From: Sphingobacteriia bacterium
GTDB lineage: Bacteria; Bacteroidota; Bacteroidia; Chitinophagales; Chitinophagaceae
Direction: 5' to 3'
Assembly: GCA_017304675.1 (NCBI GenBank)
Contig: JAFKLS010000017.1
Location: 558,001-622,000, forward strand
Length of the DNA stretch: 64,000 bases
Positions within the stretch are counted from its first letter, which is position 1; every line of letters starts with the position of its first letter. Below are positions 34,492-56,419 of the stretch, piece after piece. Position numbers and translations under genes: made by a program. Under the pieces are notes generated by a model that ran no database searches, was not told the origin of the DNA, and saw only the letters and a program-made list of their open reading frames with translations.

Positions 34492-35493
34492 TTATCCTAT
34501 CAATCCGGCGGCTTTACTAATTTGGAGCATTCGGTCAATTGGTTTTTTAGCAGCCAGCCTTAATGGCTCATCCATAATAATCTCCGGCAATTCATATTGC
34601 ATGCAGAGGTATAATTTTTCCAGGGTATTCAGTTTCATGTGCGGGCAATCGTTACAGGCACAGCTATTATTTGGTGGTGCAGGAATAAAAGTTTTAAGGG
34701 GGTTATTTAATTGCATTTGGTGCAAAATACCGGTTTCTGTGGCCACAATATATTCTTTAGTATCGTCCTGTTGGGAATATTTCAATATCTGTGTTGTGCT
34801 TCCAATAAAATCGGCCACATTTAAAATAGCTTCTTCACATTCAGGGTGGGCCAATAATTTTGCTTTAGGATGCCTTATTTTCAGTTTGGTTATTTTTTCG
34901 AGGCTGAATATTTCGTGAACCATACAGGCACCATTCCATAAAACCATCTCTCTTCCCGTTTTTTTGTTCAAATAAGCCCCTAAATTCTTATCAGGTGCAA
35001 AGATGATGGGTTGATCCTTTGGAACCGATTCTATGATCTTTTCTGCATTCCCTGAGGTACAAATAATATCACTCAACGCTTTTATTTCTGCAGTGCAGTT
35101 AATATAAGATATCACCAGGTGATCGGGATGCTTTTGTTTAAAAGCTTTAAAGAGGTCTGCCGGGGCACTATCTGCAAGAGAACAACCCGCTCTTAAATCT
35201 GGTAAAACCACTTTTTTATCCGGGTTTAAAATCTTAGCCGTTTCCGCCATAAAGTGAACACCGGCAAAAACAATCAGTTCTGCATCGGTAGTAGCGGCTT
35301 TTTGGGCAAGCCCAAGGCTGTCCCCAATATAATCGGCCACATCCTGTATATCAGGTTCCTGATAATAATGCGCCAATACAATTGCACGCTTTTGTTTTTT
35401 TAATTTTTCAATCTCTGCAAAAAGATCTTTCTGCGGATCTGTTTCAATATCTAAAAAACCTTTTTGTAAAATAGCCTCGGTTTGTATGTTCAT
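34492..35493 (-). CDS. nadA: Quinolinate synthase
   Basis: 333-aa 4Fe-4S enzyme that condenses iminoaspartate with dihydroxyacetone phosphate to quinolinate in NAD synthesis. The three cluster cysteines are visible in [20 protein letters not shown] and [29 protein letters not shown] near residue 40 is the substrate-binding start. nadB lies 5 kb away and nadD 22 kb away; nadC is not in the window. A -7-like box on the minus strand (35591-35598) gives a leader of about 90 nt. Confidence 0.96.
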
Positions 35494-35590
35494 ATCTCTT
35501 GTAATAAATAATAAATAATACTTTTTATAATTAATCCATTACTATTATTAGGGGTGTTAATTTCTTAGTAACTTAATTAATCACATACGG

Positions 35591-35598
35591 CAAAGTTA
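35591..35598 (-). promoter_or_regulatory. Putative nadA promoter -7 box
   Basis: On the minus strand TAACTTTG matches TAnnTTTG, 98 bp upstream of nadA. No clear -33 element is seen. Confidence 0.4.
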
Positions 35599-35620
35599 AT
35601 AAGCATCGTGTTCTTAACAG

Positions 35621-35987
35621 TAATTCACATACTAATCACAAAAAGAAAATGAGTATGGTATTAGGTTTAAATAGTTTTTTAACATGGCTGAATAAAACTA
35701 AGTATGCTTATCCTCAATTTATAATTCACGTAATACACACTGTTTATTAAGTATTTGTAAATAGTGTTGAGTTTATTATGAAGGCCTGAAGTTTTAAAAG
35801 CAACCCTGTTTTATTCCTTTTTTGCTAACAATTATTTGATGGGTTTTATAGTTTGTCTACACAAAAACAGGTTTATCCACAGTATAACTGTGAATTGAAT
35901 TGAAAGAAGTATGGGGCAGAAATAAAATTGGTGCTTATACAAAATATATCAGCAAAATAGAAAGCCGGAAACCGGCATTTTTCCACA
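35621..35987 (+). other. Cluster of DnaA-box-like sites
   Basis: One perfect TTATCCACA (35873-35881) and five single-mismatch boxes: TAATTCACA (35621-35629), TTATCCTCA (35708-35716), TAATACACA (35731-35739), TTATACAAA (35935-35943) and TTTTCCACA (35979-35987). All are on the same strand. This is denser than chance would suggest, and it lies next to an AT-rich segment. Confidence 0.5.
35964..35982 (+). terminator. Terminator-like hairpin without an upstream plus-strand gene
   Basis: GCCGG-AAA-CCGGC is followed by ATTTTT. No plus-strand gene precedes it within the gap, so it would serve an unannotated short transcript or form part of the DnaA-box region. Confidence 0.45.
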
Positions 35988-35988
35988 G

Positions 35989-36019
35989 TTTGTTAAAAAA
36001 ACAGTTTCCCCTATTTTTG
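35989..36019 (+). promoter_or_regulatory. Promoter of the PpiD/SurA-like gene
   Basis: TTTG (35989-35992), a 19-bp spacer and TATTTTTG (36012-36019) are a full match to the Bacteroidota promoter. The leader would be about 40 nt. Confidence 0.75.
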
Positions 36020-36067
36020 CCAGCCGCAATAAGCGGATAGTTTATAAACAATTCCAATTAAAAAAGT

Positions 36068-38167
36068 ATGTCTGTTATTCAAAAAATTCGGGACAGGGGT
36101 GCATGGATCATGTTTGCCTTGATTGCCCTTGCGTTGATTGCCTTTATTCTTCAGGACAGAGCATTAGGTGGTGGAAGAGGCGGATTATTTAATGGTAATA
36201 CAACAACAATCGGTAAAGTGAATGGTGTTGCCATAGAGCGATCAGAGTTTGAACAAAAACTGGCTATGTATGGCGCCAACGGAACACAAAGAGAGCAGAT
36301 GATTACACAGCTTTGGAATGCCGAAGTTGGTACTATTATTATGCAACAGGAATTTGATAAACTTGGTTTAGCAGTGGGCAGTAAAGAATTAGGTGATATT
36401 ATGTTTGGAGAAAACTCTCCGTTGAGAAGAGAGTTTACAGACCCTCAAACAGGCATTTTTAAAGAAGCGGATGCCCGCAAGGCATTTGAGCAGCTAAAAA
36501 AATCAAAAAATGCAGAACAGCGCAGAACCATTGCCGAAATGTATATTACACCGGCTGTACAGCAGGCATTGCAACAAAAATACCAGGCACTTATTCAACA
36601 GTCATTATATGTACCAAAATGGTTAAGTGAAAAAACACAGGCCGATAATAATACCATTGCTTCAGTAAACTATGTGTTTGTACCATATACCAGTGTTTCT
36701 GACAGCAGTATTAAAGTAAGCGATGATGAAATAATGGCTTATGCCCGCAAGCATTCTAAAGAATATGAAAGAGATGATGAAATACGCAATGTTAATTATG
36801 TAAGTTTTGATGCTACACCGAGCAGCACAGATTCTGCTGCTGTTTACAACCAGGTATTGTCTCTGAAGAATGAATTTCGTGCAGCAACAGATATACCTTC
36901 TTTCTTCTCTAAAGTAGGAAGCGATTTACCTTATAATGCAGGATTTATAAGCAGAAAGGAGATTAAGCAAAAAGCAATTGATTCAGTTGAAAAACTCCCA
37001 GTGGGTGGTATTTACGGGCCATACCTGGATGGTAACGAATATGTTTTGGCTCGTTTGGTTAATGTTAAACAACTTCCAGACTCTGCAAAAGTTCGCCATA
37101 TTCTCGTGGCTACTCATCAACCCGATCAGCAATCCGGATCATTAATGAGGGTAAGGGAAGACAGTGCAGCCCGGAAGATTATGGATTCTGTTGAAATGGA
37201 ATTAAAGGCCGGAAAAGCTTTTGATTCTGTTTGTGCCAAATATTCTGATGATGGTAATAAAAATAAAGGGGGTGTATACGATTATTTTCCTACAGGAAGA
37301 ATGGTTCCTGAATTTAATGAGTATGCTTTTGAGAAACCCGTGGGTAGTAAAGGTGTAATTAAAACCGACTATGGTTATCATTATGTTGAAGTATTAGGGC
37401 AAAAAGGTTCTGGTCCGGCATATAAAGTTGCTTACCTGGCTAAACAGATATTAACAAGCAATGAAACAGACAACAATGCACAGAATGCTGCAGCTCAGTT
37501 TATAGGTACAGCAAAAAATAAAAAAGCTTTTGATGATAACTGTATTAAACTAAATAAGCTGGCTATACCGGTAACCGATATTCATGAAAATGATTATCAG
37601 GTAAACGGGTTAGGAGAGAGCAGACAGTTGGTTCGTTGGGTATATGAGCATAATACAGGTGATATTACCGATCAACCAATCAGGATTGGCGATAAATACA
37701 TAGTTGCTGTTATTACTGCCGATATTAAACCAGGGCTTCCTCCGGTTCAGGTATTAAGGCCAATGGTTGAATCTGTTGTTCGCAATGAAAAGAAAGCAGC
37801 ACAATTAATTAAAGATAAATTTAAAGGTGCTTCTTTAGAAGCGATTGCTTCAGCAAACAATGTAACAGTGCAAAAAGCAGACAGCTTATCTTTCAGTAAT
37901 GCCTTTATCCCCGGCATAGGTGCCGATCCTAAGTTTACCGGGGCATCTTTCAATGCTGCTTCTAAAGGAAAAGTTACAGAAGCTATTGCTGGCACAACAG
38001 GTGTTTTTGCAATTAAGGTTGATAATATAGGTGCTAAAGCTGGCAGTGCAGATGCAGAAGCGGTAAAACAAAACCTTTTACAATCGCAAAGAATGGCATT
38101 GTACAGAGGTGTTGAAGCGCTGAGAAAGGCAGCAAGCATTAAAGATTACAGAAGTAAGTTCTATTAA
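36068..38167 (+). CDS. SurA/PpiD-type peptidylprolyl isomerase
   Basis: 699-aa membrane-anchored foldase facing the periplasm. A short cytoplasmic start and one transmembrane helix (about residues 12-29, WIMFALIALALIAFIL) are followed by a SurA_N-type chaperone domain (about 45-190), a parvulin rotamase domain (about 340-460, SAKVRHILVATHQPD and the region around GGVYDYFPTGRMVPEFNEY) and a C-terminal parvulin-like half. The layout is that of PpiD, which helps outer-membrane and secreted proteins leave the Sec translocon. It is monocistronic with its own promoter and terminator. Confidence 0.9.
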   Translation: MSVIQKIRDRGAWIMFALIALALIAFILQDRALGGGRGGLFNGNTTTIGKVNGVAIERSEFEQKLAMYGANGTQREQMITQLWNAEVGTIIMQQEFDKLGLAVGSKELGDIMFGENSPLRREFTDPQTGIFKEADARKAFEQLKKSKNAEQRRTIAEMYITPAVQQALQQKYQALIQQSLYVPKWLSEKTQADNNTIASVNYVFVPYTSVSDSSIKVSDDEIMAYARKHSKEYERDDEIRNVNYVSFDATPSSTDSAAVYNQVLSLKNEFRAATDIPSFFSKVGSDLPYNAGFISRKEIKQKAIDSVEKLPVGGIYGPYLDGNEYVLARLVNVKQLPDSAKVRHILVATHQPDQQSGSLMRVREDSAARKIMDSVEMELKAGKAFDSVCAKYSDDGNKNKGGVYDYFPTGRMVPEFNEYAFEKPVGSKGVIKTDYGYHYVEVLGQKGSGPAYKVAYLAKQILTSNETDNNAQNAAAQFIGTAKNKKAFDDNCIKLNKLAIPVTDIHENDYQVNGLGESRQLVRWVYEHNTGDITDQPIRIGDKYIVAVITADIKPGLPPVQVLRPMVESVVRNEKKAAQLIKDKFKGASLEAIASANNVTVQKADSLSFSNAFIPGIGADPKFTGASFNAASKGKVTEAIAGTTGVFAIKVDNIGAKAGSADAEAVKQNLLQSQRMALYRGVEALRKAASIKDYRSKFY

Positions 38168-56296: not shown

Positions 56297-56312
56297 TGTT
56301 ACACGTGGAACA
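56297..56312 (+). promoter_or_regulatory. parS-like centromere site 1
   Basis: TGTTACACGTGGAACA differs at one fixed position from the general bacterial parS TGTTNCACGTGAAACA, the ParB-binding site. A 14-bp perfect palindrome ATTGTTTAAACAAT (56312-56325) starts at its last base. Confidence 0.75.
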
Positions 56313-56403: not shown

Positions 56404-56419
56404 TGTTACACGTGGAACA
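56404..56419 (+). promoter_or_regulatory. parS-like centromere site 2
   Basis: A copy identical to site 1 in sequence and orientation, 107 bp away; the match extends to 18 bp (TGTTACACGTGGAACATT). Two exact copies in a 240-bp spacer make a chance origin unlikely. Confidence 0.75.

Follow-up and report, generated by a model that had tools for sequence, protein, structure and literature searches.

In the Escherichia coli oriC, an unwinding element lies at one end with a core DnaA box facing it, and an oppositely oriented array occupies the far side of a box region of about 245 bp. A dnaA–dnaN neighbourhood is usual for oriC in many phyla but is not required. In Bacillus subtilis, the basal unwinding system is composed of DnaA-box 6/7, a GC-rich gap and DnaA-trios; according to PMC6669920, a distant box can act there by DNA looping, whichever way it faces and from some distance, and the trio-side boxes cannot be reversed. 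Bacteroidetes oriC commonly lie far from dnaA, and those predicted for Prevotella intermedia OMA14 and other Bacteroidetes combine boxes at a skew transition with a distant dnaA (PMC4755523).

We analysed a 64-kb window (G000:C15:558001-622000) of a 3.33-Mb genome in 23 contigs, in which the gap between the divergent genes for quinolinate synthase (nadA) and a SurA/PpiD-like peptidylprolyl isomerase (PPIase) is a candidate chromosome replication origin, a reading to which we assign, from sequence, a probability of about 0.94 (Table 1). The grounds are a box cluster, a conserved box–spacer–trio–AT-rich anatomy, a skew switch and parS linkage; the strand-corrected skew break, the proximity of parS and the family-wide conservation of the module support the preliminary description, which had proposed an origin here. 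The locus is almost certainly an oriC of an already known kind, at a nadA-linked address that is shared across Chitinophagaceae though dnaA is far off.

The candidate has the layout of the E. coli oriC, with an unwinding element at the end, a core box facing it and an opposite array, but its boxes span about 480 bp rather than about 245 bp and it has an explicit trio row. With the B. subtilis basal unwinding system it shares tandem box positions, a short spacer rich in GC, a row of three or more NAN trios with AT-rich DNA on their far side, and equal polarity, the orientation of the boxes placing the trios 3′ of the box. It differs from that system in not being next to dnaA, in the degenerate core boxes of the window's genus and in a long, distant same-strand array that faces the opposite way. 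By analogy with the B. subtilis loop, as described in PMC6669920, the + strand array could serve the same role. The predicted P. intermedia oriC resembles the candidate in its boxes at a skew transition and its distant dnaA, but belongs to a different family (PMC4755523).

Table 1 Features of the candidate origin and its surroundings (window coordinates)
Feature	Position	Strand	Basis or remark
nadA, quinolinate synthase; usual left neighbour of the module	34492..35493	-	Pfam PF02445
Candidate oriC	35494..36067	.	Entire intergenic gap, 574 bp, 28% GC, between divergent nadA and SurA/PpiD-like gene
Duplex unwinding element (predicted), AT-rich	35501..35540	.	Nearest-neighbour scan
Four DnaA-trios, TAA TAA TAG TAA read on minus strand	35539..35550	-	Sequence, alignment
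GC-rich spacer, 4 bp; CCCC here, mostly GCCG in relatives	35551..35554	-	Alignment
First core box position, AAATTAACA, 3 mismatches, degenerate	35555..35563	-	Mismatches counted by eye
Second core box position, TTACTAAGA, 3 mismatches, degenerate	35563..35571	-	Mismatches counted by eye
DnaA box TTAATCACA, 1 mismatch	35577..35585	+	Box scan
DnaA box TAATTCACA, 1 mismatch	35621..35629	+	Box scan
DnaA box TTATCCTCA, 1 mismatch	35708..35716	+	Box scan
DnaA box TAATACACA, 1 mismatch	35731..35739	+	Box scan
DnaA box TTATCCACA, perfect; overlaps palindrome 35878-35892	35873..35881	+	Box scan
DnaA box TTATACAAA, 1 mismatch	35935..35943	+	Box scan
DnaA box TTTTCCACA; position better conserved than that of any other right-half box	35979..35987	+	Box scan, alignment
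Conserved promoter-like pair: TTTG 35989-35992 and TATTTTTG 36012-36019	35989..36019	+	Alignment conservation
DnaA box TTATAAACA, 1 mismatch	36042..36050	+	Box scan
SurA/PpiD-like PPIase; frequent right neighbour	36068..38167	+	Divergent from nadA
parS site TGTTACACGTGGAACA	56297..56312	+	Exact match
parS site TGTTACACGTGGAACA	56404..56419	+	Exact match

Box array and unwinding core

Counted at no more than one mismatch to the consensus TTATNCACA, the gap holds eight DnaA boxes, one perfect and seven with one mismatch, all on the + strand and none on the − strand, with a ninth box at 36075 within the right-hand gene. The expected number on the + strand of the gap is 0.56, and none of 5,000 dinucleotide shuffles of the gap attains eight same-strand boxes. 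A control scan covered 447,486 bases of this contig, made up of the window, the dnaA locus and 19 stretches of 20 kb each; four same-strand boxes is the most that any other 574-bp span contains, so that the gap stands out as an intergenic box cluster beyond chance, as expected of an oriC. The six boxes within 370 bp of the preliminary description are real, but its overall count was too low. Its single orientation is true of the good boxes and misses a probable unwinding core, reverse-facing and beside nadA; that reading was incomplete, most of the boxes in its list lying to the right of the core of trios, spacer and reverse boxes (35539-35571).

Starting from nadA, the AT-rich stretch that had been pointed out beside the boxes is indeed present; among non-overlapping 40-mer sites of the window only one is less stable, which places a predicted unwinding element beside the boxes, as in an oriC. 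The adjoining trio row, TAATAATAGTAA, exceeds the three NAN trios that define a DnaA-box/trio unwinding system (BUS), and the TA of every trio is kept in relatives. The two core box positions beyond the spacer are degenerate here; in other genera the first is of the ATATCCACA or AATTCACA type and the second is TTATCCCNA, giving relatives a TTATCCCNA/NATCCACA core as opposed to the degenerate type of the window's genus. Under the rule in PMC8287927, the first box has no more than two mismatches and lies 0–16 bp from the trios. Such a box occurs in nine loci of other genera (L008, L010, L011, L012, L014, L016, L017, L021 and L024) and is lacking from the window (L002) and three congeners (L003-L005), because their core boxes are degenerate.

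Each of the four congeneric species sampled has degenerate sequence at both core box positions, although the trios and the DNA-binding region of DnaA are conserved. DnaA proteins of the family are 79–96% identical, and the box-reading DHTT region is intact, being invariant in all 11 family proteins aligned (10 of the 12 DnaA loci and the window's own DnaA; alignment A3). An altered DnaA specificity in the window's genus was therefore rejected: with an invariant DNA-reading region, a change in DnaA does not account for the decayed core boxes. By analogy, the distant + array may instead deliver DnaA to the trios by looping, so that the origin would unwind without good trio-adjacent boxes, an idea that we hold only tentatively and consider rather unlikely. 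Degenerate and good core boxes under one DnaA in one family provide a natural test of how much the trio-adjacent boxes matter.

Conservation of the module across Chitinophagaceae

The SurA/PpiD-like protein is present in 39/39 relatives, and nadA is matched beside its gene in 17 of the 30 PPIase loci scanned, the window's own included. Loci with adjacent nadA have more boxes than expected upstream of the PPIase gene, and the remaining loci mostly do not, with one exception in the first group (L013, 2 + boxes and 5 − boxes, P 0.17) and two in the second (L021, P 0.03; L031, P 0.04). Alignment of 11 of the 17 nadA-adjacent gaps (A1, omitting L012, L013, L014, L018, L022 and L024; a further alignment, A2, comprised 10 chosen loci) reveals two conserved blocks. 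The left block, on the minus strand and running towards nadA, reads box, box, GCCG, TAATAGTAATAG and AT-rich DNA; the right block, TTTTTCCACAGTTTGTT..TTTCCCCTATTTTTGCC, consists of a box adjoining the promoter-like elements. The pattern ACA-N3-5-TARTARTARTA is found on the expected strand in 14 of the 17 nadA-adjacent loci, a set assembled from protein matches independently of the motif, and is absent from the other three (L006, L018 and L022).

A relaxed form of the core pattern has matches in 153/195 genomes of the family, a count that includes chance matches as gauged by control columns; in the window's genome, the relaxed trio pattern matches once, at the candidate. Among 30 motif loci, nadA without a PPIase match lies beside the module in ten (L095-L099, L111 and L113-L116), as it does in G022, and the PPIase gene alone flanks it in four (L101, L105, L108 and L109), counts of absent neighbours that are limited by short loci; eight of the 30 relaxed-pattern loci (L100, L106, L107, L110, L112, L118, L120 and others with neither gene) are stray matches. 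Beyond L002-L031, the module persists in 12 loci that have nadA beside it and no PPIase match.

The strict pattern, run over named genomes, gives at least 120 stretches, 80 of them listed. Of those 80, 51 are flanked as expected by both genes, 20 have nadA without the PPIase gene, 3 have the PPIase gene without nadA and 6 have neither; in 71 of the 80 listed, nadA is no more than 400 bp away and on the side expected. Four of the six neighbourless listed matches, in Erysipelothrix, Clostridia, Kaiserbacteria and Parcubacteria bins, look like chance. The 51 listed two-gene intervals together contain 224 + boxes as against 88 − boxes, the + boxes outnumbering the − boxes in 42 intervals and being fewer in 6. 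The remaining two neighbourless matches, in Taibaiella lutea (L196) and Flavobacteriales bacterium UBA5871 (L209), are strict module matches for which the DNA covered showed no nadA and no PPIase gene.

A link to nadA beyond the family was rejected. The module is found at 0/14 outgroup nadA loci (L306-L319), one purine-rich stray match in L308 being left uncounted, and the sole strict out-of-family match, G326, is not beside nadA. The literature searched, including the accessible portions of PMC8287927, PMC6669920, PMC4755523, PMC5109545 and PMC5288383, yielded no nadA-placed Chitinophagaceae origin; an automatic DoriC prediction is possible. For Chitinophagaceae, a large family in which genetic tools are scarce, this provides an origin defined by its sequence and recognizable from a short motif beside nadA, useful for genome orientation, for growth rates from coverage and for the construction of oriC plasmids.

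Skew, parS and dnaA around the candidate

Raw GC skew in the window (+0.024 in the left part, −0.014 in the right) does not turn at the candidate and, since it mainly reflects gene orientation, is not informative; it was dropped in favour of a strand-corrected skew of third codon positions (GC3), taken for each gene strand separately. On the 765-kb contig, the best strand-corrected break lies at 595 kb, with the candidate at 593.8 kb, and was matched in 0/2,000 permutations that treat genes as independent. The corrected skew changes from −0.055 on the left to +0.080 on the right of the candidate on the contig, and from −0.006 to +0.146 inside the window, so that the replication-strand switch expected of an oriC, and the inflection named in the preliminary description as its mark, is found on the candidate's own contig. 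The minus-strand genes on the right, which that description had counted against an origin, are answered by this break together with the proximity of parS.

Of three complete chromosomes sampled, one is ambiguous: G007 has a weak skew in which 8.3% of positions score better than the module, and in G017 and G021 no sampled position outscores the module, within the resolution of the sampling. In G072, sampled in 10 stretches, the module scores 0.045 and the highest-scoring of ten rotations 0.046, and on contig G083:C1, which is less than a complete chromosome and was sampled in 9 stretches, the skew is +0.038 to the right and −0.057 to the left.

The parS sites that had been placed about 20 kb away are two real sites, the sole exact matches in the genome, 20.8 kb from the candidate. 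They are identical and asymmetric, and are spaced 107 bp apart. Strict parS occurs in 10 of the 22 family genomes searched and in none of the other 12; in all ten it lies 3.8–20.8 kb from the module (3.8–16.7 kb in the nine relatives), in the origin-near region where it is expected, although the genomes are related and so not independent.

The candidate is outside the dnaA–dnaN neighbourhood, with dnaA 565 kb away; dnaA is also distant in G007, G017 and G021. Since Bacteroidetes oriC are commonly far from dnaA (PMC4755523), this distance is no strong objection. Near dnaA itself, four one-mismatch boxes lie on one strand (L001 2454-2655; G000:C15 about 29.55-29.75 kb), the second-ranking level (4) in the sampled contig; these boxes perhaps serve the self-control of dnaA.

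Alternative readings and proposed working of the origin

The gap separates divergent genes, and its best-conserved right-hand box, TTTTCCACA, abuts the TTTG/TATTTTTG pair, so the boxes might regulate nadA and the PPIase gene from a DnaA-controlled divergent promoter, with initiation elsewhere. This reading is very improbable, because promoter control does not predict that the trio–spacer–box core is retained when either neighbour is gone, nor that skew and parS mark the locus; dual use as origin and promoter control is possible. Slighter still is the likelihood of a datA/DARS-like site that titrates or resets DnaA close to an origin located elsewhere, which would fit several imperfect same-strand boxes with parS nearby but requires no trios, unwinding element or exact skew switch, all three of which are present; the relaxed trio pattern has a single match in the genome. 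Chance clustering in AT-rich DNA, for which the base composition of the gap and a window-wide count of one-mismatch boxes below shuffle expectation (76 versus 96) can be cited, is already refuted by the shuffles and by conservation of the cluster across genera.

For the candidate as oriC, we infer the following order of events from its sequence. ATP-DnaA would fill the + strand array (35577-36050) and also occupy the weaker reverse-facing positions at 35555-35571, the DnaA on the array helping these weak core boxes. DnaA would then spread along the single-stranded minus-strand trios (35539-35550) and melt the very AT-rich 35501-35540 beside nadA, where two helicases would be loaded and from which forks would depart both ways. 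ParB on the parS sites 21 kb rightward would segregate the new origins.

An Rfam scan of the window returned nothing but one tRNA. The overlap of the perfect box with a palindrome (CACAGTATAACTGTG, 6-bp arms), noticed in the preliminary description, is confirmed; a special role for the palindrome was rejected, as its fold is unremarkable (z −1.8) and it is not conserved in alignment A1. The best-conserved right-hand box, at 35979, lies directly upstream of the PPIase promoter-like elements, which we take to be such from the Bacteroidetes −33/−7 consensus, and through this box (35979-35987) DnaA may also control the PPIase gene.
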